Assembly (NCBI RefSeq): GCF_026151205.1
Contig: NC_087080.1
Span: forward strand, 12,449,837 to 12,509,836
Length of the DNA: 60,000 nucleotides
Direction: 5' to 3'
Source: Bolinopsis microptera
Lineage: Eukaryota; Ctenophora; Tentaculata; Lobata; Bolinopsidae
The stretch's first letter is position 1, and each line of letters opens with the position of its first letter. The translations under genes and the position numbers were made by a program. Below, one piece after another: positions 22,951-59,165 of this stretch. The notes beneath the pieces were generated by a model. The model ran no database searches. It was not told the DNA's origin and saw only the letters and a list, made by a program, of their open reading frames with translations.

Positions 22951-23520
22951 TTAGTTGCTTACACGGTGTTAGTTGCTTACACTGTGTTAGTTGCTTACAC
23001 CGTGTTAGTTGTTTACACGGTGTTAGTTGTTTACACGGTGTTAGTTGTTTACACTGTGTTAGTTGTTTACACGGTGTTAGTTGCTTACACTGTGTTAGTT
23101 GTTTACACGGTGTTAGTTGTTTACACGATGTTAGTTGTTTACACGGTGTTAGTTGCTTACACTGTGTTAGTTGCTTACACTGTGTTAGTTGCTTACACTG
23201 TGTTAGTTGCTTACACTGTGTTAGTTACTTGCACGGTGTTAGTTGTTTACACGGTGTTAGTTGCTTACACGGTGTTAGTTGCTTACACGGTGTTAGTTGC
23301 TTACACGGTGTTAGTTCTTTACACGGTGTTAGTTGCTTACACGGTGTTAGTTGTTTACACGGTGTTAGTTGCTTACACGGTGTTAGTTGCTTACACGGTG
23401 TTAGTTGCTTACACGGTGTTAGTTCTTTACACGGTGTTAGTTGCTTACACGGTGTTAGTTCTTTACACGGTGTTAGTTGCTTACACGGTGTTAGTTCTTT
23501 ACACGGTGTTAGTTCTTTAA
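22951..23520 (+). repeat. 18-bp minisatellite, about 31 copies
   Basis: Unit TTAGTTGCTTACACGGTG with variants at the C/T of GCTT and the G/T of CGGT, and TTAGTTCTTTACACGGTG. Because 18 is a multiple of three, long frames stay open on both strands; these are artefacts. The array ends 15 bp before the first identifiable ELMO exon. Confidence 0.95.
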
Positions 23521-32500: not shown

Positions 32501-35500
32501 CGAACTCTCAAATCAAATAAAAACCACTCAGACCCAGACTTAGCGATCGGACCGACGACACTACAGTCCCCTGACATTGACAGTACTGACGGAGAGGACT
32601 GCTCCTACTCATATTGTGACGAAATGACCGACACAAGTCTCTATTATTCTTCTGATGACGACCAACTCGACTTAGAATTAGACTCTGACACCACGCCTGT
32701 CGCTTTAAACGCTCGTTTTGTCTTCGATCTGCCGGCAAGTCGCACACGCCTGGCTGTGAGCGACGCTAGCAGAAATACTCGCAGGACTTCTAGTCTAAGC
32801 AAGTCGTTTAAGAAGGCCAGGAGGCGAGTTGAGAGTCTCGGTACTGATAATGGGGGTACACGTGATAGACTGAACAGTGCTGGAAGTAAGATTCGGAACA
32901 GAATCAAGAACAAGACTCATTTCAAACAAAGGAGAGCAAAACTGGCTCAGGAGGGAAGCAAGCAGGCCATTGTGGCTCACTCAAGTAAAGTGGTGTGCTG
33001 TATTGTACTGCACAGGAGCAATCGAGTAAAGTGGTGTGTTGTATTGTACTGCTCAGGAGCAATCAAGTAAAGTGGTGTGCTGTATTGTACTGCTCAGGAG
33101 CAATCAAGTAAAGTGGTGTGCTGTATTGTACTGCTCAGAAGCAATCAAGTAAAGTGGTGTGCTGTATTGTACTGCTCAGGAGCAATCGAGTAAAGTGGTG
33201 TGCTGTATTGTACTGCTCAGGAGTAACCAAGTAAAGTGGTGTGCTGTATTGTACTGCGCAGGAGCAATCAAGTAAAGTGGTGTGCTGTATTGTACTGCTC
33301 AGGAGCAATCGAGTAAAGTGGTGTGCTGTATTGTACTGCTCATGAGCAATCGAGTAAAGTGGTGTGCTGTATTGTACTGCTCAGGAGCAATCAAGTAAAG
33401 TGGTGTGCTGTATTGTACTGCTCATGAGAAACCAAGTAAAGCGGTGTGCTGTATTGTACTGCTCATGAGCAATCAAGTAAAGTGGTGTGCTGTATTGTAC
33501 TGCTCAGGAGTACACAAGTAAAGTGGTGTGCTGTATTGTACTGCTCAGGAGCAATCAAGTAAAGTGGTGTGCTGTATTGTACTGCTCAGAAGCAATCAAG
33601 TAAAGTGGTGTGCTGTATTGTACTGCTCAGGAGAACACAAGTAAAGTGTGTGCTGTATTGTACTGCTCAGGAGCAATCAAGTAAAGTGGTGTGCTGTATT
33701 GTGCTGCTCAGGAGCAATCAAGTAAAGTGGTGTGCTGTATTGTACTGCTCAGGAGCAATCAAGTAAAGCGGTGTGCTGTATTGTACTGCTCAGAAGCAAT
33801 CAAGTAAAGTGGTGTGCTGTATTGTACTGCCCAGGAGCAATCAAGTAAAGTGGTGTGCTGTATTGTACTGCCCAGGAGCAACCAAGTAAAGTGGTGTGCT
33901 GTATTGTACTGCTCAGGAGCGATCAAGTAAAGTGGTGTGCTGTATTGTACTGCCCAGGAGCAATCAAGTAAAGTGGTGTGTTGTATTGTACTGCTCAGGA
34001 GCAATCAATTAAAGTGGTGTGCTGTATTGTACTGCTCAGGAGCAACCAAGTAAAAGTGGTGTGCTGTATTGTACTGCCCAGGAGCAATCAAGTAAAGTGG
34101 TGTGCTGTATTGTAATGGTCAGGAGCAATCAAGTAAAGTGTGTGCTGTATTGTACTGCTCAGGAGCAATCGAGTAAAGTGGCTGTAACGTTATTCTACAT
34201 ATATATATATTAGATGTACTCTACTGTGAGTCAGATTGTGCAGCAAATGTATGTAAACATAAGGCAGGAGATTTTTTCTCAAATTTGAGTACACTGGTCT
34301 TAGTATTCAATTGCGAATCCCTTAAGTCTACTATAAAATTTACTGTCTGGGACTATTGATTTTTGATACTGTCTCCTTACTCCTTAGCTTTGTCTCGAAC
34401 TAATATACTTTAAATACTGCAACATTTGCAATAAATTGTTCCCCAAACGTAATTGATAATTCTTAAGTAAGGGTTAGGTGAGTTTCTGTATAGAAAACTT
34501 TTGCTTTCGTCATTTAACTGTCCTAAAATTTAACTTTCCTATTTAAATTTACAAAGTTGCTTACACATATAATAATACCTCAATTTTCAGATATAGGCGT
34601 GGAGATAGATTTCCTGCCGATTGTTTTCTCCCAAGACAACATATTCTTCGAGCTATTTAGTATAACAGTTCAGCTCTTCAACACTACATGGCATGAAATG
34701 TTCGCAAAAATTAGCGATTTTAACAAGGTATGTGATTTCATGTTAAGTTTGAACCAAAGAATTCGTCTCGCTAAATTTTAGTGCCAATACTTCTGAATTT
34801 GAGACCCTATATAATAGTCTCCTGATTTATTGATTATAGGAAAATAGTAGCGTAATACAATTTCCTTTAATTTCATAAAAGTTGACTTATTTACTTATAG
34901 AAGATATGATTAAACATTTTTGTTAAATATTTTTACGGTTTAGGTGCCGAAACTACATTTTGAACCACGCCGAGAAAATAATAATCGAACTTTGTTAATT
35001 TAACATACTTGTTTCAGGTTGTAGACGTAGTTAAGGAGCAATTGAACATGGTCTTCAAAGGGGAAAAGAAGATTAATAATACTGAAGATTTCAAAGGGGC
35101 ACTTAAGATCGTTCCTTTCAGCAAAATTCAGGAACAGAGGCTAAAATCCTTGGAAAAAGATTCTCTACCTATCATTGTAACTATCATTTCAAACTATTAT
35201 TCTAACTATTATTATATTTAAATTTTTGCTCATTGCATTTTTACTTCTTTATTTTCAAAAATTAAAATTTCTCTCTGTTACTGATTGTTATTTCAGCAAT
35301 TGCGTAAGAAGTTAAAGCCGGAACTGCAAGCTTTAGTTAACAGACAAAGGCTAACAATCCTGGAGGCCGGTCAGTAGGGAAAATGTTCAGCTATTTAGCA
35401 TAACCTATTATTTATTATGTAATTTCATTATTTTATTGATTTTTGTTTTATTGACTATGGGGCCGGTTAGGTCGAATCTCCGTTGGTAAAGTTATCTCTG

Positions 35501-39899: not shown

Positions 39900-42800
39900 C
39901 TAATTATCTCTGCAACGTTCTGCTTTGCCCAACATCATGCCACGAACGTGGATCTCACAACTTATGCAATTGAAGTCTTGACCTTTGAGATTCGCGACCT
40001 TCATAGTGAATCCCTTCTTCTTGTTGAAGGATTGTTTTTCGTTCAGCTCGGTTTCGTCCATCATGAACTTGGCTTCTATCCCCTTCATTGCGCCTAAGTT
40101 TATGTCGTTTCGCTCTTTGTTAGCCTGGGAAGGTGATATTGAAATTAAATATGAGTTAAGTTCGAAAATAGCTGAAAAGTTACATTTATATAACTTTATA
40201 TGACGTAAAGTTTATTAACAATAACATTGGTGCATAGCCTTGAAAAGGCAGGTTGCCCAGGCTTTCAGCCAAGCTTTAAACCTTTCCTGGAGTGAAAATA
40301 TGAAACTGCTAAATCACGGTTTGGTTATGTTACAGTTGGTGAATTTCATTTGAAAACGAACCTTAGCTCTGCAGGTAATCTTTTTGTTGGAATAAGTCAG
40401 CGATACGGTTACGTTGAGCATTGCACTGTCGAAACATTTGACAGCAATCCTGTCAAAATCGAAACATTGAGCATTCATTCCGCTCATCTCCATAGCATCG
40501 TCCATTGGTATAGCTCGGCAACTCGAACTGAAATGAAGAGAAATTGTTAGTAAGGATTGCTGCATGACGGTTAATCTTAATCAATTAATACCATGAAACA
40601 AATTGATTGTATTATTTTTTTCAGCAGTGTCAGTTAGAGTCAAAATTTTCACCAGGAGAATATTCAAATCTTCACTTACCTTTTGGGTAATGTGTCATCA
40701 AAGTCGCAGTTAAAACCAGTCCATCCGAATCCTGGCATTTCTTCAGGTTGGTATGGCATAACTTTCATCTTTTTACTTGTAGGGATTTGAGCTCCGTGTT
40801 TGAAACCCAGAGTCCTGCAGATAGCTCCAGCAGCGTTGTTGTTGAAACCGTCGTTACATCCAAACTGCCACTTTCCTTCTTTATCAGTCTCAATTCCAAA
40901 AGTCTCCCTTGCCAGCACAATACCAGCAAACACTCGGTCATTGCTATCTATCAACTTCTTCTCTTCGCCAACGTGTAATTTGAACTCTAGCTGACTGTAG
41001 GTGGTTCTGGGTTCGCAACGTGGTACTTCATAAGAACCATCCTTTCTACACCAACCCCATTCACTTGTAAAGTCTTTGGAGTTGTTCCAATCCCACGTCT
41101 TGTGCATCATATGACCCTCATAACATTCGTATCTGGCTTTCACTGGCATCATCTCTAACATGTTTTTATATTCCTCATCCATGTCTTCCTCACCCTCCTT
41201 CTTGGCTATGATCTCTTCATCTGATTTATCGCCCTCCTTGTCATAATCATCCCTCAATCTTAATTCAACTGCTTTTCCATTTTCTATATAAGTGGGGATG
41301 CCACAATGTTTCATTTTTTCCGGGAGTGCACATGTAGGTAGCATGACATTTCCCATATAACAACCCGCTATATTAGCCACGCTCATGTAAGCTTCATCGG
41401 CTGACTTGCCTTGATCACTAATTAATGACATGAATACCTTTTGGTTTGGAGTCATGACGAAAGGTGGATAACACATGTACGCCGCGTATTTTGAGCCATC
41501 AGAATCTCCCTCCAATAATTTGCGGCCTCCGGATATGACATCAGGGAAGCGACATTCATTGCTCTCTTGAGTACAATGAGGATGTTCAGGTTTAATTTCA
41601 CTTCCTTCACACCACACCCACCCTCCTTTTTCTTGGATGCTAGCAGGCAAGGACCACTCTTCAGTACACTCGTATCTTACCATGTTATTATTCTTCTCAG
41701 CTAGGTAACCGTTGTCAATTTTTTCGGGAAGAGAACAACTATCTTGAGTACAATGAGGATGTTCAGGTTTAATTTCACTTCCTTCACACCACACCCACCC
41801 TCCTTTTTCTTGGATGCTAGCAGGCAAGGACCACTCTTCAGTACACTCGTATCTTGCCATATTCTGATTCTTCTCAGCTAGGTAACCGTTGTCAATTTTT
41901 TCGGGAAGAGAACAACTATCAGCGGCTGCGTCTTTTACACAGACTGGCTGGTAAGTGATTGTACCGGTATTAGTATCACATGTTGCCCAGTCGCTTCCTT
42001 CAAACTTGCTCCCAGAATCACACTCATACCTGACGCCTCCGTCATGTTGATCTGTAGTTCGGTATCCATTAGGAATTTTTTCCATGTAAGTACAGACCTG
42101 GAATCTCTCACAGTCTGGTTTGAATGTTATCGCTCCATTCACACCGCAGTACATTCTGTCTTTACCATCATAAGCACGGTATCCTTCATCACATTCTACT
42201 TTGATACTATAATCATTCCTATCTTCTTCGTTGATGCTACCGTTATCAATAACCACATCGCTGAAATCGCACATTACACCACTTTTCTGAATACACTGTG
42301 GATACTTTACATTACCGTCAACATTGCACCTTGCCTCGTTGTGATCATCAACCATCCTGTATCCATCATTGCACCTGTACCATTGCTTCATTCCCATGTC
42401 GCCTTTTTTTTCCTTGACACCATCCGGGATATCATCAAATGTACAATCGAATATATTACATTTAGGTTGTTCCGGGGATACGATATCACCGTTGCACACT
42501 GCCCAGCCGCCAACTTCCCTGAGTTTTTTTGGCAGCTTCCAACCAGATTCAATGTTACACTCGTATCTTGCTTTATTGTGTTCTTTTTCAGCTCGGTGGC
42601 CGTTATCAATGCTGTCTGGGAGATCACAGTCATCTTCTTGCTCCATACAGTGAGGATGTTCAGGTTTAGTTTCACCTCCTTCACATTCGACCCAACCTCC
42701 TCTTTCTCGGATGCTAGCAGGCAAGGACCACCCTCCATCACACTCGTATCTTGCCGTGTTGTATTTTTTCTCAGCTCGGTATCCGTTGTCAATCCAGTCG

Positions 42801-45800
42801 GGTAGGTGACAATTATCTGGTTGTTCACACTTAGGCATGTAGGAGATCGTTCCATTTTTCCGATCACACATTGCCCAGTCACCTCCCTGCATCATATACC
42901 CTGCCTCACATTCGTATCTGGCATCGTTTATGTATTCTTCCATTTTCTTTCCTCCGGGTATCGCGTCAGGGAAGGCGCAGCTCTTAGACTCATAGCACTG
43001 GATGTTGTTCGTTTCCACTTGTGTTGGATCATCTTTTTTGCAACTTAACCAAGAGTTACCCTCCATTTCCATGTTATCAGGACACTCATACCGAGCACCT
43101 TTCGTTCCTTTTTCCTGGTCCAAATACTCATCTTCTTTACGAGCTCCATTAATTTCATCAGGGAAAGTACAAGTATCACCAAGAGCGCAACGGGAAACTT
43201 TAGCGACAGCTACTCGTGCACCGTCCATCTCATGGGTCTCACAGTAACCCCAGTCCGTGTCTCTCAGATAGAACCCATCATTACACTTGTATTGTGACCA
43301 GTAGCTTCCATCGTCTTGGCGACCTTCCTTTACTTTCTGTCCATTATCGATATCGTCAGGGAAAGAACATCGAGCAATACATTCAATGTTGTTATCTATT
43401 CTGAAACCATCGCTAGGATTGCATTCAACCCTCCTGTTGTAGTGAGCTGCCATGAAGCCATCGTTACACTTGTATACAGTGTAAGGACAAGATCCGCCAT
43501 CTTTCGAACTCCTCCAGTCGTACCATTTCTGAAATATATCACTTTCAGGCCAATCGCACTCATCCTCAACACAGGTTGGGAAGTTAATGTTTTTATCGGC
43601 ACTCTCCCACTCGCAGGAAGCCCAAGTTGAGCATCTCTCTGAAACGAATCCTTCATTACAGCGGTACTCGGCGTTCACATTGTCATAACTGACTTGGACT
43701 AACTTTCCGTCGGTTATGCTGTCAGGGAAGGAGCAGGTATCACACTGGAATGCCACCTTAGCATCACTTTCCATGTAGAACCAATTAGCCTCACAGTTGT
43801 TGCATTCGTCCCGGCTGCATTGAGGGTTTTTCTCTTTGATAGAACTCTGCATTTTACATCTGTTCCAGTCGCAATAACCTTCACACTTCCTCTTCACATT
43901 TCCGTTGGCACAGAAAAATTCGTCAAGAGCAACTGCAGATTGAAAATCGAACTCTGCCATTCTGAAACCTGCAGGGACTTCAAAAGCAAGATCTTTAAGG
44001 TTGTTTGCCACACTCCATCCAGTGAATGCGTTCATATCCTCAATACCCATGGTGTCCATCATAGCAATGCCAGCTTCAACAAAGGATTCAAAATTCATGG
44101 TTTCCAGATTGCCCAGTCTAGTCAGTATGGGTATGAGAATTGCTGATGTTTCAGCATTCATTTTGCCATCGAAATTTGCAGCCATACGCATCATATATTG
44201 GGATTGATCCAAGTTTGCACAGTCGTTGCTAAGGTCCGCTTCATCAAGATCATTAACTTTTTTGAAAACGTAGCAAATGACATCTACGATTGGTTCGCCA
44301 TCTTCATCGTCATCTTCATCGTCATCTTTATCATCATCATCGTCCATTATACTATTGAAGATATCGTCCCAAGACTTATCCCAATCAGATCCACACAGCT
44401 CATTAAATCCCTTTTTGATATTGGCAGAACCCATGCAGATTATGTTTTGGATTTTCAGGCCGTCAAAATCTAAGTCATCGTCCCATATAGTTTCCAAGGA
44501 ATTATCCGCACAAGTTTCCCTCAAAGCCTTTACTGCCTGTGCGACTCCGCACATGTTCATCTCAGGGGTAATGGACAGATCGAATCTGTTTTCTCCCAAT
44601 ATATCTCTTAGTCTCTCAACATCTCTATCACTCTTATCATCAAGCTTCCAATAGTTATCTTTCTCCATGCAGTAATCTTTTTCCATACCCCAGAATGGAG
44701 TAGGTTTTCTCCAGCCACAAGAGTTGCACTTCTTCCCATCTTCTCCCCAAGACCCGAAGGGACATTTCTCGCACATTCCTTTGTCGTTCAAGAAAGATCC
44801 CGGTACACAGGCGGTGCATACTTTGCTGACATCTGAAATGGATAAAACTCAATTCATTGAAAAATAAAAAACAGTAAAGAACAGAGAATGCTCATATATT
44901 AAATTGTCGTGTTAGACCTTTATTAGCCAGTTTAAACATAGAAAAGAAATTAATTACATAAGTCTACATCACAAGAATAGTAATAAAATAAGGAGGTTAA
45001 AATATAGGTTATTCTATGAAGAATTCCTTGTTTCTCACTGTAAAACGCTTAATTGAATATTTTAAATACGCTATCTGTAGTATAGAATTGCAATCTTACC
45101 TGCAAAGCTCACCCCCATATCTCCACAGCCGTCAAACATATTTTGTAAGCTGAATTGTCTGAAACAGAAAGTATTAGTAACGAGTTAGCGATAATAATTA
45201 ACATCATACAACACCTATGTAAACTATTTATACATGCTTGGGATACATTCCAACCGATAAAAGGAGTAAAGATTAACAAAAATTCTCAAACACTAAAAAT
45301 GTTTTAGTCACTCCAAGGATGTATTGGCTTTATGAAGGGCGAAGGTTCAGTTTATATAGCCAATTAATATGATCTTACATGTTATCATCGGCGAAGTTCA
45401 TCATTCCATCCAAACTCTGAAAGTCATCAAATGAAAGAGAATTTTCTGCTTTGGTGAAGGTATTGACGAAAGCCACGAGAACTCTTCCTCCTGAGAACAC
45501 TAGAGTTTACAGCAAAATTTTAATAAACCAACTTAACTGTATATTCAAAGTTATAAATTTTACACTAGCTTTGGTTATCAACTGGGATCAGAATTCAGAA
45601 TAACGAACATGTCTCACTTAAAACGTTATTTATTTTCAATCTACCTAGTAAAGAACTAAAATGTGGTTAACAAAATGTGGTTAACAACTCACCTTCGCAG
45701 CTCAACAAGTTTAGTTCACACTTTTCAGATGCCCTGAAAACAACATTAGTCAAGTTCTGAGCTTAAACACGTGACTAAAAGAGCACATTGATAACTCAGA

Positions 45801-48800
45801 GTACCCCTATTAACTAATTAATTAATTATTTAATTAGTGAAACTGGAGCATGAGACCTAAGAAGAGCGGAGCCGTTTAGTTTAAAGGATTAATTAATTAA
45901 CTAACCTTGTGAGACACGGCAACTTTCGTTCGTCACTTCGCTCAATAGCGTTCCTGACCCGTACGTAACCAGCATTAGTTCCGCAATCAACGGAAGATGG
46001 GACTGTGAACCTGAGGTAATACCTCTGCACAGTGGCAGTAGCTGCAACAGTTCCAGCAACTGCATCTGAAATTAGTGTCAAATGTTAAGAATGAGAGGAG
46101 TTTTGATATTTTAATTGGGTAAATTATGTGCGTTCATCATGTTAAAGGAAATATTAAAGCAGCTGTATGAGAGAAATCAACTTAAGTTAATAGAAGTAAA
46201 AAATCACGATATATTGCTTGGAACAGGGAAAAATGAAAAACAGTCAGCATTTTGTATTAAGTTTGATGATAATTAAGCAGAACTCACCACAAAACTGACT
46301 GTTATCTCCAGCGATTGGACAGTCACCCTTGAAGTAAGGTTCGAATTCCACCAACTCAATATCGTCTATATTCATCATATCGACATCCAGGTCCATGTCA
46401 AGTGTGTTAAGACTACTATGGCCTCCCACAAACCTGCGGAGAGTGTTTTAAGAGTTGGGTTTATCAACAAATTTCTATTTTATGGCAGAGAATTAACAGA
46501 ATTACAAACAAAATCCACAACAAAATCTAGCAATTATACCTAAAAATGAACAAGAAAACAAAAAATGAGTTGTAATATCAGAGCTGGTCTTACTCTTTGA
46601 TTTTGTTCAGATAAGGGCGTCCCAACTTGATGTACGCATTCCCCACACCTCGATGTGTATCAACCATGTCGAGGATTTTCCAGAATTCCCAGGCAAACTC
46701 GGTGGGCAAGTTCATCTCAAAGGCCATGGAGGTAACATCATCACCTGCAGCGTGACTGAAAAACATTTCAGTTATAGCAATGTGTAGGGGCAAAAATAAA
46801 TTCACAGGTTATAACTATTTAAAAGGATGATAGAAAAGAATTGAAGGTTAAAGTTGTTAACATACTCGCACTGGTAGAAATGTCCATCGAAGGGAGCAAC
46901 TTTAGAGATACCCCAGAGAGCTCTTTTGATGTTTGTACAGAAATCACCACCTTTTACTTGTACTTTAAATCCTACTGTTGCTCGAACGAAATCGCCGACA
47001 ACCTCGTCAGGTCCTGAGAAACAGAATTTCTCAGAGTCATGTTGGGGAAATAAAGAACGTTGCAATACAACACTTCCAAGATTTGAAAATTTTAATCAAC
47101 TCTGAATTTTACAATTTATACTTCTAATATCTATTGTCAATATGGGCGCTAAAACTCCGTTTAGTTTCTAATTGATAAGTAAATGATATGTAATTGATAG
47201 GTAATTGATAAGTCATTGATAGGTGTACTTACGAACACACTGGGAAGAGGAGTCAGCACCATTAGCGGTAGTTGTAAATGGTCCTCGTCTATTTTCGTCC
47301 CAGCTCTCACAATCATTACACCTGAAAGAGAATGTGTAAAATGTTGAGAAATGTGTAAAATGTTGAGAAATGCATAGAATACTTTATCTTAGCACACTAT
47401 AATCAGCGATTGTTTACACGGCATTAATTTTAAATATCTTTAATGATAATGCTTTTGGTATGTCTAATTACATTATCTACTTTTCTTTTGCAAGATGCAC
47501 ATCAAAATCTTAAATATCCAAAATATTTCCAGTTTGATCAATATTCGTGAGTACAGTCATCAGCTAGCCCATAGTGTATTTGAGTATTATATGCAAAATT
47601 TGACCGACAACTAGGCCTAATTATGTCAGGTTCCCACACAAAAACAGCATGCGTTAAATCACGTGATCAATTTCCCCACGGATTCTGTCAAGGTTGATCT
47701 TTGGATTAGTTGTTCTGTAGCCCAATATCGTGGAAATTATTTTAAAACTCAAAGTATAATATTTACTTTTTCCTCACGAACATGATAACATGATAAGCAA
47801 TAGATCTGGAAATTAATTGGAAGGTGGCCTGGGCCACACTTGTTATGGCAATGAAAGTGGTTTTGATTGGTAGATGATGCAAGTTGGTAGTACCTATCAC
47901 GTGTTAACGTTGTTGGTAATACCAGTCACTGCACGTGATAACCCGTAATGGTCTGGACCTAACCGCCAGTATCCAGATCTGTTCATTAAATATTTTGGTA
48001 GTGGTGCGAAAATGAATTGCTTTCATTTCCCTATTACCCGCAACCCCATCACGAGTGCAATCACATTCGAACATGGTGTAGAATATTTCAATCAAATTCA
48101 CGGCAAAATATTGTTTTTCTTTATCACTTGGCAACCTATGGTGCTTCATCGGACAGTAGGTAGAGTTCATTGGCATTTACAGTGACGTAACGTTACCTCT
48201 TGTCACCCCCGGTCCCTCCCTCCTCTCCCCAATAAAATGTATGTTTTTAAATATACTACTTTATGTTTCGTTTTGGATGTAAGGATCTGCTCAATGTATG
48301 CGCCAATGCACAAACATTAATATCACCTTTATGCAATAAATGGCCTACCTGTGAAACTTAACAGGTAATTTAAAAAGTTAGAAAATAACGAATAATTGTT
48401 TAAGGGGGGGGGGGGGGGGGGGGGGGTTCACCCTGATTTTTTTGTGAAACTTGGTTTCGAGATAGCAGTTGACCAACAGACTAGGACCGGTGACCGAACT
48501 TTTGAGGGAGTCCCGGACCCCAACCGCCAAACAGTGCCCGCGGGGCAGCCACACCCATATTTGGTCCAAATTAGGCCCAATTTAGCCAAATAGCCTGAAC
48601 ATGCCCAAAAACCAGATTTTAGGTGCTTTACTTGTAGCTAGTGGTCCCCTGAACTCGTATATGAATTTTCATTATGATTGGACAAAAAATTACCGAGTTA
48701 TGAGCCAAAAACATATGACCATATTTGGGCATACGCACCAAATTTGATCGATTTTGGCCCATAAATTGGTCAAATATCAATATTTTTGAATGAAACCAAC

Positions 48801-51800
48801 TTTATATGGAAGGTTAGCCTATACTTCACATCTCTATGATTATTCAGCTCAGTATCTACCTAACTGTGGATTCTGTGTTTAAATAATCGCAAAAAATGAA
48901 CAAAATCGTCCATATCTCAGTTCGCGATATTTGCGAAACTGATTTCGCTCAAAACAATAGAACTCAATAGGGTTAAAAAAATTTGGCGGCCAAATTCCAA
49001 AATTTGCCTGGAATTTTTCAGAATTTGGCCGCCAAATTAAAAAAAAAGCCTAACTCAAAATTCCAATACAAAACTTAAGGTCGAAATGCTATTCTACGTT
49101 GATTCTGAAAATTTCATGTAAAAATATTGAAACCCTATTGAGTTCTATTGTTTTGAGCGAAATATGGTCATATGGTTTTTGGCTCATAACTCAGTCATTT
49201 TTTGTCCAATATTAATGAAAATTCATATACGAGTTCAGGGGACCAATAGCTACAAGTAGAGCACCTAAAATCTGGTTTTTGGGCATGTTCCGGCTATTTG
49301 GCTAAATTGGGCCTAATTTGGACCAAATATGGGTGTGGCTGCCCCGCGGGCACCGATCGGCGGTTGGGGTCCAGGACCCCCTCAAAAGTTCGGTCACCGG
49401 TCCTAGTTTATTGGTCAACTGCTATCTAGAAACCAAGTTTCACAAAACCCCCCCCCCCCCCTTAACAAGGAATGGGTTATAAAGAGTCAGAGATCTGAGC
49501 GTTACGCTTTAATGACTTATCGTGCAATATTCGTTATTATTATATTGATTATGCGTGCCCTGACCACATCAGTAGGTGTTTGACACACAGTAAATCATTA
49601 TTTTTTTTCTTAAAAGTAATTTCTATCACCTCACGGTTTGTTTTGTTATTAATCTTACGATTAATGATAAATCACAAACTTCTTCGCTTAAATATCTTTT
49701 TCAAATATTCTAGGTACTTGTCCGTTAAGATGATTGTTTTTGTACTAGAGTACTTAAATCTACTAAGCAAGCTGTCATGTGACAAGGACTGCCCAAATAG
49801 TAAGTTTTAAAAATAAGTTAAATTATAACGTTACTTACTCTGTAGTAAGTTTTTTAAATGAGTTAAATTATTTAAACGTTACTTACTAATTAATTAGTAA
49901 TTAACATTACTTACCCTGTCATTCCAGTTTCGTTCGCAAATGTGCCAATTGGACATTTGAAACAATCGTCAACTCTGGCACCGTCAAAATTGTAGCATCC
50001 AAGTGGGCACTCGACTGAAACAAACAACTATCAGTGTCAAGTTAAAGACTAAAAGAGCAGTTTCACCGCTGTCTCACCACCTACGGTTACCTACGGTTAC
50101 CACGGGCTGCATCACAATCAACACGGGACCCGTTTAAGGGGGCAGGGGGGGGTCTTTATGAAATTTCTCTCGAAATTGATTTTATAGTTGTTTCTAATAG
50201 AGGGGAGTGATATCTATCTGCTATTTTTGGTCCCATGGAAAAATATTGTTCCTAGCCGAAATTATTACCGGTCAAAGGTCAGTGCTCATGTGTAATTGTA
50301 TTGCGCGAGCGATTTTCAATCGTGCGCCCTGAAAATCGAGTCTAAAAATCTATCTCCTCCTACATTTTTTGAGCAATCACCTTTAAACTTTCAGGATATG
50401 TTTTAAGGATCATTTAGAAACTTTTGCTCGTTTTAGAATTTCGAGATAGGCTTTTTAAAAATTTTTATTCGATTTTGAAAATCTTGGACCTCTTTTTTTT
50501 GACGATTTTTAAACTCTTAAAATATCTAATTAACATGGTTAAGTATCTAATTAACATCTACAACTCACCGCATTGATCACCATCTCCGACCATGTGTCCA
50601 GGTGGACATTTCCTGTCAGATTTGGGTGTTTCCCAGAAATCATCACTCTCAAGGTACTGGTCCATCTCGTTATCTCCGGTATCTGATGTAATAAAGTGTT
50701 AGATCAGACAAGGTCAATTATATGATAAGTTATCATAGATAACCATTCCAAAATATAAAGAGATTTCAACATTTAAGATTAGTTATGCAATGAGCACGTA
50801 TCTGTTAGAATGGTATAGCTTTCTGAAGTTAATCTTTAAAATATTTTTAGTAGTTTTACTTTTTATTTTTTAGCTTCATTCTCAACTCTATTTTAATTAT
50901 TTCATAAGGGTCTGAGCACTTCGTACAGTATTATAAAATTAGTTTGTATTGATAGTGCTACAAACTTGAAAAATACTGTAATCTATATTTCATCTTCCTA
51001 TCCCAGTAATATATAACAATATGTGCCACGTTAAGTTTGAAACTTCAGTTGAGGCTAGATGTAATACGCTTAATGGTTTAAATAATTAATTAGTGTCCTA
51101 CATTGATTTTAGTTACCTGTACTGTCATCTGTACTGTCATCTGTATTGTTATTTGGGAACACAATATCCATCTCAATACGACCAGAGTATTTCTCAGAAT
51201 AACACGTGATATTGGTATTATTGTGACCTGCTCTGAACGAATCAATAAACCCTGCTATAATAGTTTCAACAGTTACATTTTGAGGGTCATTATTGTGTCT
51301 CCAGACATCTCTATAGAAACCGGCTCCTTCCCATGCCGCGACAGAAGGTCCGATCAGGTTATCATATCCTATTCCGTTAATTAACATTCTGAAGGAACTA
51401 TCCTCCTCAGGGGCGACAACTGAACATGTTATAGAACTTGCTCCGCCAATATGAGCTTCAGAAGGTCTCGGCCCTCTGATGTGGAAAGCAACGTTCTGAT
51501 TTGGGTCTGAAATTATAGATTTGGAATGGAACTCAAACCATGTGCATTTTTCTAGGCGAGCTTATAAGTTGATACTAATATTTTAAATCAATATTATTAA
51601 TATTGATTCTTGAGCTTACACTAGCGACGTCTTATTTTGAAGAACCAGAGCTTTGATAGAATATTATTATAGCTTTCTAAAGTTAGATTTAAAATATTTT
51701 CAGAAGTTTTACGTTTCTTGTCCACTGGGTTTAGCTTCATTCTCGACCTTATTTTAATTATTTCATAAGGGTCTGAGCACTTCGTACAGTATTATAAAAT

Positions 51801-54800
51801 CAGTCTGTATTGATAGTGATACAAACTTGAGAAACACTGTAATCTAGATTTCATCCTCCTATCCCAGTAATATATAACAATATGTCAATATGTGCCACGT
51901 TAAGTTTGAAACTTCAGTTGAGCTAGATGTGATACGCTTAATGGTTTAAATAATTAATTAGTGTCCTACATTGATTTTAGTTACCTGTACTGTCATCTGT
52001 ACTGTCATCTGTATTGTTATTTGGGAACACAATATCCATCTCAATACGACCAGAGTATTTCTCAGAATAACACGTGATATTGGTATTATTGTGACCTGCT
52101 CTGAACGAATCAATAAACCCTGCTATGTAAGTTTCAACGGTTACATTTTGAGGGTCATTATCGTTTTTCCAGACCCATCTTTGGAAACCGGCTTCTGTCC
52201 ATGCCGCGACAGAGGGCGTGGTCAGCATATCATATCCTATTCCGTTAACTAACATTCTGAAGGAACTATCTTCCTCAGGTGCGACAACTGAACATGTTAT
52301 AGAACTTGCTCCGCCGATATGAGCTTCAGAAGGTGCCGGCCCTCTGATGTGGAAGTTAACGTTCTGATTTGGGTCTGAAATTATAGATTAGGAACTCAAA
52401 CTGAAACCATGTGCATTTTTCTAGGCGAGCTTATAAGTTGATACTAATATTTTAAATCAATATTATTAATATTGATTCTTGAGCTTACACTAGCGACGTC
52501 TTATTTTTAAGAACCAGAGCTCTGATCATAGAATATTATTATAGCTTTCTAAAGTTAGATTTAAAATATTTTCAGAAGTTTTACGTTTCTTGTCCACTGG
52601 GTTTAGCTTCATTCTCGACCTTATTTTAATTATTTCATAAGGGTCTGAGCACTTCGTACAGTATTATAAAATTAGTTTGTATTGATAGTGATACAAACTT
52701 GAGAAACACTGTAATCTATATTTCATCCTCCTATCCCAGTAATATATAACAATATGTGCCACGTTAAGTTTGAAACTTCAGTTGAGGCTAGATGTGATAC
52801 GCTTAATGGTTTAAATAATTAATTAGTGTCCTACATTGATTTTAGTTACCTGTACTGTCATCTGTACTGTCATCTGTATTGTTATTTGGGAACACAATAT
52901 CCATCTCAATACGACCAGAGTATTTCTCAGAATAACACGTGATATTGGTATTATTGTGACCTGCTCTGAACGAATCAATAAACCCTGCTATGTAAGTTTC
53001 AACGGTTACATTTTGAGGGTCATTATCGTGTCTCCAGACATCTCTATAGAAACCGGCTCCTTCCCATGCCGCGACAGAAGGTCCGATCAGGTTATCATAT
53101 CCTATTCCGTTAATTAACATTCTGAAGGAACTATCCTCCTCAGGCGCGACAACTGAACATGTTATAGAACTTGCTCCGCCAATATGAGCTTCAGAAGGTC
53201 TCGGCCCTCTGATGTGGAAAGCAACGGTCTGATTTGGGTCTGAAATTATAGATTTGGAATGGAACTCAAACCATGTGCATTTTTCTAGGCGAGCTTATAA
53301 GTTGATACTAATATTTTAAATCAATATTATTAATATTGATTCTTGAGCTTACACTAGGGACGTCTTATTTTGAAGAACCAGAGCTCTGATAGAATATTAT
53401 TATAGCTTTCTAAAGTGAGATTTAAAATATTTTCAGAAGTTTTACGTTTCTTGTCCACTGGGTTTAGCTTCATTCTCGACATTATTTTAATTATTTCATA
53501 AAGGTCTGAGCACATCGTACAGTATTATAAAATATTGATAGTGATACAAACTTGAGAAATACTGTAATCTATATCTCATCCTCCTATCCCAGTAATATAT
53601 AACAATATGTCAATATGTGCCACGTTAAGTTTGAAACTTCAGTTGAGGCTAGATGTAATACGCTTAATGGTTTAAATAATTAATTAGTGTCCTACATTGA
53701 TTTTAGTTACCTGTACTGTCATCTGTACTGTCATCTGTATTGTTATTTGGGAACACAATATCCATCTCAATACGACCAGAGTATTTCTCAGAATAACACG
53801 TGATATTGGTATTATTGTGACCTGCTCTGAACGAATCAATAAACCCTGCTATAATAGTTTCAACAGTTACATTTTGAGGGTCATTATCGTTTGTCCAGAC
53901 ATCTCTATAGAAACCAGCTTCTTTCCATGCCGCGACAGAAGGTCCGATCAGGTTATCATATCCTATCCCGTTAATTAACATTCTGAAGGAACTATCCTCC
54001 TCAGGGGCGACAACTGAACATGTTATAGAACTTGCTCCGCCAATATGAGCTTCAGAAGGTCTCGGCCCTCTGATGTGGAAAGCAACGTTCTGATTTGGGT
54101 CTGAAATTATAGATTTGGAATGGAACTCAAACCATGTGCATTTTTCTAGGCGAGCTTATAAGTTGATACTAATATTTTAAATCAATATTATTAATATTGA
54201 TTCTTGAGCTTACACTAGGGACGTCTTATTTTGAAGAACCAGAGCTCTGATAGAATATTATTATAGCTTTCTAAAGTGAGATTTAAAATATTTTCAGAAG
54301 TTTTACGTTTCTTGTCCACTGGGTTTAGCTTCATTCTCGACCTTATTTTAATTATTTCATAAGGGTCTGAGCACATCGTACAGTATTATAAAATATTGAT
54401 AGTGATACAAACTTGAGAAATACTGTAATCTAGATTTCATCCTCCTATCCCAGTAATATATAACAATATGTCAATATGTGCCACGTTAAGTTTGAAACTT
54501 CAGTTGAGGCTAGATGTAATACGCTTAATGGTTTAAATAATTAATTAGTGTCCTACATTGATTTTAGTTACCTGTACTGTCATCTGTACTGTCATCTGTA
54601 TTGTTATTTGGGAACACAATATCCATCTCAATACGACCAGAGTATTTCTCAGAATAACACGTGATATTGGTATTATTGTGACCTGCTCTGAACGAATCAA
54701 TATACCCTGCTATAATAGTTTCAACAGTTACATTTTGAGGGTCATTATTGTGTCTCCAGACATCTCTATAGAAACCGGCTCCTTCCCATGCCGCGACAGA

Positions 54801-57800
54801 AGGTCCGATCAGGTTATCATATCCTATTCCGTTAACTAACATTCTGAAGGAACTATCCTCCTCAGGTGCGACAACTGAACATGTTATAGAACTTGCTCCG
54901 CCAATATGAGCTTCAGAAGGTGCCGGCCCTCTGATGTGGAAGTTAACGTTCTGATTTGGGTCTGAAATTATAGATTTGGTACTCAAACTCAAACCATGTG
55001 CATTTTTCTAGGCGAGCTTATTAGTTGATACTAATGTTTTAAATCAATATTATAAATATTGATTCTTGAGCTTACACTAGCGACGTCTTATCTTGAAGAA
55101 CCAGAGCTCTGATAGAATATTATTATAGCGTTTAGAGTTAACTTAAAAATATTTCCAGTAGTCTTACACTAAGTCTTCTTGTCCACTAGTTTTAGCTTCA
55201 TTCTGAACCCTATTTTAATTTTTTCATAAGGGTCTGAGAACTTCGTACAGTATTATAAAATTAGTTTGTATTGATTATGATAGTTATACAAACTAAAAAA
55301 AACCACTGTAATCTAGATTTCATCCTCCTATCCCAGTAATATATAACAATATGACAATATATGCCACGTTAAGTTTGAAACTTCAGTTGAGGCTAGATGT
55401 AATACGCTTAATGGTTTAAATAATTAATTAGTGTCCTACATTGATTTTAGTTACCTGTACTGTCATCTGTACTGTCATCTGTATTGTTATTTGGGAACAC
55501 AATATCCATCTCAATACGACCAGAGTATTTCTCAGAATAACACGTGATATTGGTATTATTGTGACCTGCTCTGAACGAATCAATATACCCTGCTATAATA
55601 GTTTCAACGGTTACATTTTGAGGGTCATTATTGTTTGTCCAGACATCTCTATAGAAACCGGCTTCTTTCCATGCCGCGACAGAGGCCGTGGTCAGTAGAT
55701 CATATCCTATTCCGTTAACTAACATTCTGAAGGAACTATCCTCCTCAGGTGCGACAACTGAACATGTTATAGAACTTGCTCCGCCAATATGAGCTTCAGA
55801 AGGTGCCGGCCCTCTGATGTGGAAGTTAACGTTCTGATTTGGGTCTGAAATTATAGATTTGGTACTCAAACTCAAACCATGTGCATTTTTCTAGGCGAGC
55901 TTATTAGTTGATACTAATGTTTTAAATCAATATTATAAATATTGATTCTTGAGCTTACACTAGCGACGTCTTATCTTGAAGAACCAGAGCTCTGATAGAA
56001 TATTATTATAGCGTTTAGAGTTAACTTAAAAATATTTCCAGTAGTCTTACACTAAGTCTTCTTGTCCACTAGTTTTAGCTTCATTCTGAACCCTATTTTA
56101 ATTTTTTCATAAGGGTCTGAGAACTTCGTACAGTATTATAAAATTAGTTTGTATTGATTATGATAGTTATACAAACTAAAAAAAACCACTGTAATCTAGA
56201 TTTCATCCTCCTATCCCAGTAATATATAACAATATGACAATATATGCCACGTTAAGTTTGAAACTTCAGTTGAGGCTAGATGTAATACGCTTAATGGTTT
56301 AAATAATTAATTAGTGTCCTACATTGATTTTAGTTACCTGTACTGTCATCTGTACTGTCATCTGTATTGTTATTTGGGAACACAATATCCATCTCAATAC
56401 GACCAGAGTATTTCTCAGAATAACACGTGATATTGGTATTATTGTGACCTGCTCTGAACGAATCAATATACCCTGCTATAATAGTTTCAACGGTTACATT
56501 TTGAGGGTCATTATTGTTTGTCCAGACATCTCTATAGAAACCGGCTTCTTTCCATGCCGCGACAGAGGCCGTGGTCAGTAGATCATATCCTATTCCGTTA
56601 ACTAACATTCTGAAGGAACTATCCTCCTCAGGTGCGACAACTGAACATGTTATAGAACTTGCTCCGCCAATATGAGCTTCAGAAGGTGCCGGCCCTCTGA
56701 TGTGGAAAGTAACGTCCTGATTTGGGTCTGAAATTATAGATTTGGAACTTAAACTCAAACCATGAATTTTTCTAGACGAGTTTGTAAGATGATAATGATA
56801 TTGATTTTTGGGCTTACACTAGCGATGTCGTATCCCCGTCGTATCGTAAGGAACCAGAACTTGAAGCTAATAAATTTACTTCGCAGTAAACCAATTCAGT
56901 TCGCAGTAAACCAATTCAGTTCGCAGTAAACCAATTCAGTTCGCAGTAAACCAATTCAGTTCGCAGTAAACCAATTCAGTTCGCAGTAAACCAATTCAGT
57001 TCGCAGTAAACCAATTCAGTTCGCAGTAAACCAATTTGTACAGTTCGCAGTAAACCAATTTGTATTTGCACTGTTTTTTAGCTCGCTTATCAGTGATCGT
57101 TATCAGTGAAAGTGTTACTCGCCACGTCGACTTTCAACAGCGCCGACTGTGTAGCATGGATTTTTCAGTGGACCGGCTCAACGCGATGGACCATGAGATG
57201 ACATCAGAAATTCAGAAAATATTCAAGGTTGCCAATGTTTCATGTAGATCTGACTTTACTGAGACCGCTTTAATGAAACTTAACAAAAATCCACTCGTCA
57301 AAATCATCGGCAGCTTAATGAAATTGGCGGAGAAGAATATTGAACTTTGTAAAAGTGCTGCTGGGAAAATTGATGTCATGAAATCGGAGAAAATAGCGGA
57401 TCAGAAACTAATTATTGAAACTCAACAAGGACAGATGAATTCAGTTCAGGAGACAGTTAAATCAGAAATGAAAAGTTGGACGGATGTTGTCAAGAAAAAC
57501 ACTGCTCAGCGTCCTAGCGGGAAACCTTTAACAGAAAACTCTATCAAACAAGCCGTCAGGACTGTAAATGAAGAGAAGAAACGATCGAAGTACTTGATGA
57601 TCTACGGTTGCCATGAAAGTGATAAAGAAGCCGATTTTGAGCTCAACAAAGTTGTCAAGGACATACTTTACGGAACTGACGCTTTCCCCGTGCTCCGCAC
57701 TGGTGAGGTCTACAGAATCGGAAGGAAGGAACCGGGTAAGAATAGGCCTATCAAGGTCGAATTTGGTTGTGCCAGTGAGGTAGACTTGATTTTGATGCGT

Positions 57801-59165
57801 GCACGAAACCTCAGAGACAGTGACTCTTTCAAACATGTTTATTTGGGACCGGACAGAACCAAAGAGGAACAGCTTGCGCATAGTAAACTTGTTAAGGAGA
57901 TGAAACAGATGATCCAGAAAGACTCAAATAAACATTATTTCATACGCGACAGAAAGATCTGCACGGCTGATAAAACCTTATCATCTCAAACGTCCCAAAG
58001 CTCCTGATAAGAGTTAATGTATGATGTATGTTGAGTGTTATTTGGTGCTGACTGGAGTTGCCGTGTGTAGATTTACCACTTTTTACAATTAATAAATGAA
58101 CCGCGTTGAAAGCTTATTTAGCGTGTTTTTTTCAGTGCTGAGACTGGTAAATGTTAAAGTAACAGAACCTGAACTGCAACTCATATTTTTATGCTATTTT
58201 CTAGTTACGTCGACACACAAGGCTAAATAGTTTTCGGAGGCTTGCTAGAATTTTATTCTCTATGTTTCTATAATTTTATATTGTATGTTTTTTATATTTC
58301 GGTACAGACCAGCGCCCATTGGGCGTATTCAATCAATCAGTTCGTTGTCTTTCACGAAATAAATTGATCATGTGGCTTGTAAAGGTTGTAACATTAACTA
58401 TGCTTCTTTACAATTACTGATTAAAATGTTGACCGTTCGCGTTGAAGCATATTCGTTTTGATACGTGACAACCATCGACTTCCCACAGCATTCAATTATA
58501 TCTCAGAATAGAAAAACAACTGGTACGTGACATAACAAAACAAATAGCAGTTACCAGTTTTCGGATAATCGCAATGGTAGGTAGTTTTTATAGACGTTAT
58601 ATTATTATACGTTATAATCTACTGTGAATTTGAAAGTGATAACGCTGATTACTATTACACGGCATTCTGCGTGATAGATTAAATGGATTTTACAATAAAA
58701 GTTAACGGGAGGTGCTCTAATAAATAGAGCTAACATTTTTAGCCTAAAATGTTAGTTTTATAACACGGCTAAGTTTAGTCCGGTTGAATTGTATTATCCG
58801 GATTATTATTAGTTTCTAGATTTAATCATGATTTCAAACAGTGCTGAAAGAAATCAAAAAATGATGTGGAGTCTTTGTAAGTTATGAATTTGGCCCTAAA
58901 GCAAAGAGTTTAAAAAAACATAAAGTACCAGAAGAAAAAGGAAACTTACCTTCATTTGTACTTTCTTGAGCCCATACTACCAGCAGGACTGTGCAGAACA
59001 CAAACTGGGGAACACGATTTGTCAAAAGTAATTAATTAGCGCTAAAACAGGTGTCGAGATGTTAGTTGTAAGTTGTTCAAGTTTTAGAGATTGAAATTAT
59101 TGTAACTCTACAATAAAAAAGATAAGATACAGTAAATTCAAGTCACTCACAAGTTTTTTCCACAT
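39900..59165 (-). CDS. Giant secreted Ig-array / Cys-rich / sushi / SRCR protein, 22 exons
   Basis: Exons 5' to 3': 59151-59165, 58950-59004, seven 390-bp exons (56338-56727, 55455-55844, 54572-54961, 53711-54100, 52850-53239, 51985-52374, 51117-51506), 50569-50682, 49915-50014, 47233-47321, 46866-47013, 46594-46755, 46288-46433, 45906-46065, 45693-45733, 45379-45490, 45100-45158, 40680-44832, 40362-40527, 39900-40124. Total 8,475 nt, 2,824 residues, all phases matching. Signal peptide begins MWKKLFVFCTVLLVVWA. Seven Ig-like repeats fill ~24-933, then an acidic linker, an ephrin-receptor-like Cys segment (CPLGCYNFDG, CFKCPIGTFANETG), a ~600-residue unrecognised region with an Asp run (DDDDDKDDDEDDDED), fourteen sushi-like modules (~1680-2590; C.FPD.I..G ... 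Y.C..G) and an SRCR-like domain (WQFGCNDGFNNNAAGAICRT). No transmembrane segment, so probably secreted or matrix-bound. Function unknown; recognition, complement-like or matrix roles are possible. Confidence 0.85.
40680..44832 (-). other. Single 4,153-bp exon carrying all sushi-like modules
   Basis: One uninterrupted exon encodes ~1,384 residues of the giant protein, from a Cys-rich CTACVPGSF / CPFGSWGEDGKKCNSC segment through about 330 residues without a known domain to fourteen sushi-like modules and the start of the SRCR-like domain. Such a long exon contrasts with the 41-166-bp exons around it and is unusual for sushi arrays, which commonly have one exon per module. Modules 13 and 14 are expanded by acidic insertions (EEIIAKKEGEEDMDEEY). 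Confidence 0.85.
41571..41924 (-). repeat. 177-bp tandem duplication of a sushi module
   Basis: Modules 11 and 12 (both CSLPEKIDNGYLAEKN ... GGWVWCEGSEIKPEHPHC) are nearly identical at protein and DNA level, offset by exactly 177 bp (59 codons). This is the most recent duplication inside the sushi region. Confidence 0.9.
47322..48399 (-). other. Intron of the giant gene, non-coding
   Basis: AT-rich intron sequence; the 90-codon minus-strand frame at 47904-48176 shows no domain and lies outside any in-phase exon. Nothing else seen before the foldback element at 48404. Confidence 0.5.
48404..49461. mobile_element. TTAA-flanked foldback element with poly-G ends
   Basis: Terminal arms of roughly 320 bp (48404-48725 and about 49150-49461) are inverted copies, starting with a G tract of more than 20 bases and ending with a C tract. 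TTAA flanks both ends (48400-48403 and 49462-49465). A second inverted repeat sits in the centre (TTTGGCGGCCAAATT / AATTTGGCCGCCAAA). No ORF. It shares the TTAA flank and G-rich tip of the 35971-36698 element but not its arm sequence. Confidence 0.85.
50138..50508 (+). mobile_element. Half copy of the GGGGGC foldback element
   Basis: Starts right after TTAA (50134-50137) with GGGGGCAGGGGGGGGTCTTT and follows one arm of the element at 35971-36698 to its centre (CTTGGACCTC), then stops. The second arm is missing, so this is a truncated copy, inserted in an intron of the giant gene. Confidence 0.85.
51117..56727 (-). repeat. Seven tandemly duplicated Ig-exon units (861-883 bp each)
   Basis: Each unit has one 390-bp exon plus intron. 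Start-to-start spacings are 868, 865, 861, 861, 883 and 883 bp. All seven exons begin and end in phase 1, so any number can be spliced without frame change. The Ig domain has Cys in SITCSVV and NITCYSEK and N-glycosylation sites NVTV and NITC. The two units nearest the 5' end of the gene (55.4-56.7 kb) look almost identical, intron included. A diverged intron copy extends below the array to about 50800. Confidence 0.97.
56878..57060 (+). repeat. 20-bp tandem repeat upstream of LINE ORF1
   Basis: TTCGCAGTAAACCAATTCAG repeats about seven times nearly perfectly, then two longer variants ending AATTTGTACAG and AATTTGTATTTG. It sits immediately 5' of the LINE ORF1 and in the same orientation, so it may be a promoter-monomer array of the element. 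Confidence 0.9.
57156..58007 (+). CDS. LINE ORF1-like RNA-binding protein
   Basis: A 283-residue protein; ATG at 57156 is chosen because the sequence becomes protein-like there, although the frame is open from 57060. Residues ~40-110 are rich in K, E and Q with heptad-like spacing, a likely coiled coil. Residues ~140-250 look like the RRM-type core of LINE ORF1: RSKYLMIYGCHESD, VYRIGRKEPGKNRPIKVEFG and HYFIRDRKI, with YLGPDRTKEEQL between. Such proteins coat the element RNA as trimers and chaperone reverse transcription. The frame is intact although ORF2 is missing. Confidence 0.75.
   Translation: MDFSVDRLNAMDHEMTSEIQKIFKVANVSCRSDFTETALMKLNKNPLVKIIGSLMKLAEKNIELCKSAAGKIDVMKSEKIADQKLIIETQQGQMNSVQETVKSEMKSWTDVVKKNTAQRPSGKPLTENSIKQAVRTVNEEKKRSKYLMIYGCHESDKEADFELNKVVKDILYGTDAFPVLRTGEVYRIGRKEPGKNRPIKVEFGCASEVDLILMRARNLRDSDSFKHVYLGPDRTKEEQLAHSKLVKEMKQMIQKDSNKHYFIRDRKICTADKTLSSQTSQSS
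58008..58949. other. LINE 3' region and intron 2 of the giant gene
   Basis: Non-coding. The first ~380 bp appear to be the LINE 3' UTR; the rest is AT-rich intron up to the second exon of the giant gene. Confidence 0.5.

Follow-up and report, generated by a model that had tools for sequence, protein, structure and literature searches.

What kind of protein is specified by a gene in which seven exons of equal length stand in tandem and differ from each other mainly in one short segment? The question is raised by a stretch of 60,000 nucleotides from the ctenophore Bolinopsis microptera (RefSeq assembly GCF_026151205.1, contig NC_087080.1, positions 12,449,837 to 12,509,836), the whole of which is called the window here. 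A sequence-only reading had described, at 51117-56727, seven immunoglobulin (Ig) exons of 390 bp each in phase 1-1, and these were confirmed on the minus strand as parts of a gene model. The exons were numbered in the order of transcription, E1 lying at the highest coordinates. They are given below with the residues of their three variable blocks, among which every motif alternative listed in the earlier reading was present.

E1, 56338..56727, minus strand: Ig exon, LLTTA / KEAGFYRD / TNNN; variable patch 56513-56581.
E2, 55455..55844, minus strand: Ig exon, LLTTA / KEAGFYRD / TNNN; variable patch 55630-55698.
E3, 54572..54961, minus strand: Ig exon, NLIGP / EGAGFYRD / RHNN; patch 54747-54815; a mosaic with the flanks of E2 and the patch of E7.
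E4, 53711..54100, minus strand: Ig exon, NLIGP / KEAGFYRD / TNDN; recombinant patch 53886-53954.
E5, 52850..53239, minus strand: Ig exon, NLIGP / EGAGFYRD / RHDN; variable patch 53025-53093.
E6, 51985..52374, minus strand: Ig exon, MLTTP / TEAGFQRW / KNDN; variable patch 52160-52228.
E7, 51117..51506, minus strand: Ig exon, NLIGP / EGAGFYRD / RHNN; variable patch 51292-51360.
Six introns between E1 and E7, span 51507..56337, minus strand: lengths, in the order of ascending coordinates, of 478, 475, 471, 471, 493 and 493 bp.
Intron palindromes: 51586-51608, 52455-52477, 53319-53341, 54180-54202, 55042-55064 and 55925-55947.

The splice sites are uniform in all seven exons, the acceptor ending in TTTCAG and the donor beginning with GTAACT. 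The array introns fall into two distinct sequence types; introns 1 and 2 do not differ at any of their 493 bp, and introns 3 to 6 are mutually diverged by 1-3%. A 23-nt near-perfect palindrome occurs approx. 80 nt upstream of the acceptor in each of the six inter-exon introns, while none was expected from shuffled sequences; it is possibly a by-product of the duplication of the unit only.

In the alignment of E1 to E7, 38 of the 390 positions are variable, and the claim that the differences are concentrated in a short stretch and not evenly spread was upheld: 21 of them fall within exon nt 147-214, a segment of 68 nt comprising nearly all of codons 50-72, and 17 in the remaining 322 nt. The six aligned introns, taken as the yardstick, contain 45 variable sites in 497 columns, 34 columns in which the flank of E7 alone has bases being left out of the count. 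The density of variable sites in the segment is 3.4 times the mean intron density (Fisher test, P = 3.6e-6 against the introns and P = 2.0e-8 against the other exon positions), and the pairwise differences per site average 0.148 for the segment, 0.025 for the remainder of the exon and 0.046 for the introns. A scan of the exon and intron columns with a width of 69 nt, which was derived from the data themselves, gave a statistic of 21 that was matched by one of 20,000 permutations. Replacements were found in 11 of the 12 variable codons of the segment and in 6 of the 11 outside it (P = 0.07 for this contrast alone); those in the segment include the charge-changing ones at codon 60 (K/E/T) and codon 70 (R/T/K). 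The exons had also been described as nearly invariant at both ends, which is true for the 3' end, where nt 271-390 are without differences, but not for the 5' part, where replacements occur at codons 5, 7 and 14.

Sequence has been exchanged among the copies of the array. The mixing of cassettes that had been noticed earlier is real but limited, there being five haplotypes of the segment among the seven copies: the second and third blocks are co-inherited (KE-TN, EG-RH, TE-KN), and the novel combinations are due to the first block of E4, where NLIGP is combined with the KE-TN block, and to N/D at codon 72. Twenty-three exon sites are biallelic and informative; many pairs of these are in four-gamete conflict, and a statistic similar to the pairwise homoplasy index (PHI) was 0.180, compared with 0.459 in shuffled order (P = 0.0001, 10,000 permutations). 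In the case of E3, the comparison with E2 gave no difference in the 182 aligned bases upstream of the exon and none in the 146 bases of its 5' part, 13 differences in the 68 bases of the segment and one in the 176 bases after it, and the segment itself is identical to that of E7. According to the site patterns, from which the direction of the transfer between E3 and E7 is not resolvable, the E7-like tract in E3 (minus strand) has outer bounds at 54704..54835 and inner bounds at 54726-54815, that is, a length of 90-132 bp. E5 and E6 share all of their last 176 bases and differ at 17 of the 68 positions of the segment, while E6 and E7 differ at 18 of the 68 (26%). The shuffling between copies suggested before is thus borne out by the four-gamete conflicts, the PHI-like test and the E2/E3/E7 mosaic.

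The host gene was modelled with 22 exons running from 59165 down to 39900, which comprise 8,475 nt and encode 2,824 amino acids with a terminal stop only; GT donors and AG acceptors are present at all 21 introns. The splice sites were picked by eye under the constraint of the reading frame, and the model was derived from the genomic sequence, without transcripts. The exons lying outside the array are as follows.

Exon 1, 59151..59165, minus strand: start codon and MWKKL, the first part of a split signal peptide.
Exon 2, 58950..59004, minus strand: remainder of the signal peptide, FVFCTVLLVVWAQESTNE; donor in phase 1.
Exon 10, 50569..50682, minus strand: acidic linker and first cysteines, phase 1-1.
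Exons 11-19, 45100..50014, minus strand: TNFR/ephrin-receptor-like cysteine-rich piece and an unclassified region, in continuous frame with GT-AG introns; 49915-50014, 47233-47321, 46866-47013, 46594-46755, 46288-46433, 45906-46065, 45693-45733, 45379-45490 and 45100-45158.
Exon 20, 40680..44832, minus strand: 4153 bp; TNFR-like start, sushi-like repeats and the first part of an SRCR-like domain; a homologous exon is present in the paralogue L016.
Exon 21, 40362..40527, minus strand: end of the SRCR-like domain; paralogue at L016:2491-2679.
Exon 22, 39900..40124, minus strand: C-terminal cysteine-containing domain and stop; L016 ends at the equivalent place.

The Pfam matches of these exons have scores under the curated cut-offs: Ephrin_rec_like (E 4.4e-4), TNFR_ELAPOR1_6th (E 7.9e-5), SRCR (E 1.3e-4) and, just under the cut-off, Sushi in five stretches (E 6.9e-4). 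The best PDB matches of the SRCR-like region are SRCR proteins (CD5-like, E 0.0011). The gene model is supported by L016 (at C9:2.97 Mb), since in this paralogue, whose SRCR match likewise remains under the cut-off, the signal peptide is split over two exons in the same manner and the homologous sushi and SRCR exon, the two final exons and the position of the stop are shared. No transmembrane segment could be read from the translated model after the signal peptide, and a hydropathy scan of the minus-strand open reading frames (ORFs) of at least 40 amino acids (mean 2.2 over 21 residues) gave no match within the exons of the gene; therefore the product is probably secreted. A direct duplication of 177 bp with 97% matches (41565-41920) inside the long sushi exon adds a near-identical sushi-like module, and the gene therefore seems to be growing by recent tandem duplication in two places. 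The name of recognition protein, given to the product in the sequence-only reading, would follow from its domain content, that is, from a protein predicted to be secreted, Ig-like, sushi-like and SRCR-like.

Relatives of the array exons were found by genome searches, which yielded at least 21 close family exons at five loci, namely seven in the array, four on contig C8, eight on C1, one at C9:2.97 Mb and one on C6, together with a distant family domain on contig C10. Copy-number change, which had been expected of exons with symmetric phases, was seen to the extent that the paralogous loci of this one assembly differ in copy number (1, 1, 4, 7 and 8). In a tree in which 11 of the 17 inner branches are open and branches are long, the seven copies of the window form one clade (100/100), which would fit either a recent expansion or homogenisation. 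When seven representatives were aligned, one per locus or type, the mean identity of residues 46-76 was 0.252, compared with 0.604 in the other 81 core columns (P = 0.0001), and gaps occurred at 49-53 and 72-75 (also at 6); the patch is the least conserved segment across these representatives. Types b and c of the C1 cluster have 21 aligned differences, 12 of them in residues 46-76 and none before residue 40.

The family loci have some further features of their own. At L011 (C8:11870000-11879999) the four near-identical Ig exons lie behind an ORF with a signal-peptide-like start, and at L013-L015 (C1:5325000-5354999) the eight family exons, which are of three types, are in an apparently duplicated block. 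The single-Ig paralogue (L016:5995-6546, minus strand) has an extra N-terminal domain before its Ig exon, with no Pfam match. The distant member on C10 is part of a 762-amino-acid ORF (L034:6262-8547, minus strand), in which eight thyroglobulin type-1 stretches precede the Ig-family domain.

The Ig character of the family was assessed in an alignment of 12 members and in one of nine members including the C10 relative. The cysteines of the B and F strands (C28 and C102) are invariant in both, as are I26-T27, F39, N77, T79 and T82, while the block F.M..(I/V)NG is common but not invariant; the cysteines and the C-strand and E-strand motifs stand in the order that is correct for an Ig domain. The 12-member profile had a single and weak match in the PDB, Dscam 7y9a (E 0.05). 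With the nine-member profile (E up to 10) 24 matches were obtained, the best with E 0.11, and all of them were chains of Ig-domain proteins, which are not independent, since 21 are antibody chains and the others LRIG3, Dscam and pIgR. An exon of the array alone had no match among the PDB sequences, and the C10 domain alone had five, two Ig and three non-Ig (best E 0.32). In the best alignment of the nine-member profile with an antigen-binding fragment (Fab), the patch maps to the stretch that follows strand C, in the direction of strands D and E of the usual Ig nomenclature. It would thus occupy one edge of the Ig domain and not the tips formed by the complementarity-determining regions CDR1 and CDR3 of antibodies.

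The reading that we favour, tentatively and with a little less than an even chance, is that the gene encodes a constitutively spliced, secreted recognition or adhesion protein with seven Ig domains, which conversion makes uniform except in one patch, where divergent cassettes persist. All seven Ig exons would normally be spliced together, and the product would be a soluble, multivalent rod; gene conversion in short tracts, together with unequal crossing-over, would keep the units alike and shift the cassettes, which extend from the C to the E strand, between copies; and diversifying or balancing selection may retain the cassettes because the segment contacts a ligand, be it a microbe, mucus or the cells of another individual. 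A use in immunity or allorecognition would be a guess from the domain content. That the product is a germline-diversified, soluble and multivalent Ig recognition molecule, with cassettes moved among seven exons, which is independent of Dscam and of vertebrate antibodies and possibly serves immunity or the telling apart of individuals, seems doubtful and rather unlikely to us. The array may instead be an ordinary tandem repeat of a matrix, mucus or adhesion protein, produced by a recent Ig expansion and concerted evolution, in which the patch is nothing more than the loop under the weakest constraint, its old differences being kept by drift and limited conversion; this is quite possible, even if we would not expect it. 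Relaxed constraint, however, should not carry the segment above the intron level, which it surpasses in density by the factor given above; E6 and E7 differ by 26% in the segment, compared with 1-3% among introns 3 to 6, and an ordinary repeat would need homogenisation everywhere except in the patch.

Several results weigh against the favoured reading, and a part of them speaks directly for the ordinary repeat. Positive selection is not proven: in the segment the three main cassettes, compared pairwise by the NG86 method, have 0.22-0.37 non-synonymous (dN) and 0.05-0.17 synonymous (dS) differences per site, and a neutral simulation for the three haplotype pairs gave P values of 0.03, 0.06 and 0.29, so that neutrality stands in two of them. 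The ratio of dN to dS ranges from 0.6 to 4.6 in the six of seven computed pairs that have dS > 0, one of the seven repeating the same cassettes. Compared with the densest 68 intron columns (13 variable, mean 0.102), which were chosen post hoc like the segment itself, the segment has no significant excess (P = 0.17). Synonymous differences in it are also elevated in two of the three haplotype pairs (for E1 and E7 dS is 0.17, against 0.03 outside), and the cassettes therefore appear to be older than their flanks, an age that is compatible with balancing selection or with chance survival. The segment varies in length across the family, and the near-identical copies of the four-exon array on C8 have no focus of variation, with four replacements, only one of which is in the equivalent segment; these points are likewise what an ordinary repeat would lead one to expect. 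Types a and b of the C1 cluster have 30 differences, only 13 of them in residues 46-76. E3 itself could possibly have arisen by a crossover at nt 127-146 and an independent change at nt 259. As for the Ig label, it is backed by the exon anatomy and by weak profile matches, but no Pfam Ig model matched an exon of the array or any of the 12 alignment members. The AlphaFold models, with a mean predicted local distance difference test (pLDDT) score of 39.5 for the seven exons and 38.2 for one exon, are too poor to place the patch; their strand order is compatible with an Ig domain but unreliable. Selection on a binding surface, as the sequence-only reading had proposed, is thus suggested and not shown: the differences in the segment exceed the mean intron divergence and are mostly replacements, but the simulation, the raised dS and the comparison with the densest intron stretch keep it from being established.

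The seven exons could also be alternatives, one or a few of which are chosen by mutually exclusive or variable splicing, as in Dscam, resulting in isoforms with distinct binding specificities. Their symmetric phases would allow any number of the 390-bp exons to be included without loss of the frame, the introns have a common palindrome near each acceptor, and the predicted duplexes of array introns with the intron following E7 lie on the strong side of the shuffles (-63.8 for intron 4, as against -57.4 +- 3.6). Mutually exclusive splicing is known to be achieved by steric exclusion, by the type of the splice sites (GT-AG or other), by decay or by duplexes between introns. In our case the splice sites are the same in all seven exons and of the GT-AG type only, introns as long as 471-493 bp hardly seem compatible with steric exclusion, and decay cannot enforce exclusion, since the inclusion of several copies preserves the frame. 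Duplexes with the flanking introns were within the range of the shuffles for introns 1 and 4 of the six, in a test with 20 shuffles each of two-base blocks, which was confined, for the upstream intron, to its final 900 nt. No Dscam-like splicing control was outstanding in this limited pairing test and among introns that are all GT-AG, and the alternative inclusion of exons proposed earlier has gained no support from the sequence so far. Since the splice signals match, the phases are symmetric and no exclusion device stood out, inclusion of all copies is probably constitutive, and we consider Dscam-like alternatives unlikely. A partial artefact of the assembly or of short-read polishing, by which near-identical units were homogenised or chimerised and their number possibly misjudged, appears very improbable. 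The 493 bp of intron 1 recur unchanged in intron 2, and polishing of the published assembly could copy bases between repeats; in the available sections of its description the B. microptera assembly underwent polishing by pilon with Illumina reads and the purging of haplotigs (PMC10232365). However, the patches differ as in-frame, multi-base cassettes, the two intron types are maintained, variation in this segment recurs in the separate C1 cluster, and polishing errors are not expected to concentrate replacements.

Other features of the window are the following. A 1206-amino-acid ORF at 13538-17158 (minus strand) has endonuclease and reverse transcriptase domains and belongs to a retrotransposon of the long interspersed nuclear element (LINE) type. 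Intron 2 of the gene contains, on the opposite strand, a 317-amino-acid ORF (57054-58007, plus strand) with sub-cut-off Pfam matches only (best E 0.0029), which we take to resemble the first ORF of a LINE; it adjoins a 20-bp repeat at 56880-57060. An inverted-repeat element is present at 35931-36757 and at approx. 50046-50516, in the intron after exon 10; it looks like a miniature inverted-repeat transposable element (MITE), and its close relatives among the matches listed are at L010 and L017. Large tandem repeats occupy 17976-19079 (99 bp x 11), 22951-23514 (18 bp x 31), 28339-28958 (6 bp x 103) and 32981-34181 (41 bp x 29). The ORFs at 2001-4509 (minus strand), which include a transmembrane-like segment, FN3 (E 2.1e-7) and one ORF that is possibly Ig-like, probably belong to a separate gene; the FN3 and transmembrane exons at 2001-3006 were considered as the end of the host gene, but the conserved stop of exon 22 and the phases speak against this.

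If the favoured reading is true, the locus would be a compact case in which concerted evolution and cassette exchange coexist, the repeat units being alike except for one patch, and a ctenophore, of a lineage possibly sister to all other animals, would be among the bearers of Ig-based diversity; if the array is an ordinary repeat, it would represent a matrix protein whose Ig domains have recently expanded in tandem. Titin-type repeats are similar in their tandem Ig modules, symmetric exons and concerted evolution, but they belong to an intracellular structural protein, and we know of no focused variable segment in them. The Dscam1 protein is membrane-bound, unlike the secreted product predicted here, whose Ig array consists of whole-domain exons in one gene according to the gene model.

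The matches listed in our literature searches included no description of a tandem Ig exon array in ctenophores, nor is one described in the accessible parts of two ctenophore genome papers (PMC11797021, PMC10232365). The immune repertoire of Mnemiopsis, of the same phylum, contains extracellular multidomain proteins that combine SRCR with sushi, TNFR or Ig domains and are proposed to be immune receptors, a content similar to that found here; as far as the available text of that study goes, SRCR expansions, domain content and expression are treated, but neither sequence exchange among copies nor an array of tandem Ig exons (PMC11797021), and the Ig family described here is not detected by Pfam. 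The Sp185/333 genes of the sea urchin, in the portions of the two reports at hand, likewise form a repeat-rich and fast-diversifying invertebrate immune family with clustered, similar copies, but they are many two-exon genes for another type of protein (PMC3091723, PMC5103432), whereas here Ig exons are repeated within one gene. In arthropod Dscam1, to judge from the sections of the study available (PMC3236188), tandemly duplicated Ig-coding exons differ in short putative ligand-binding segments, as in our array, and their diversity among paralogues was proposed to be maintained by selection without proof from dN/dS, as would be the case here too. The Dscam1 exons are mutually exclusive and without gene conversion between them in the same sections (PMC3236188), whereas in B. 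microptera exchange is evident and splicing is more likely to be cumulative. Dscam arrays are the nearest known design.

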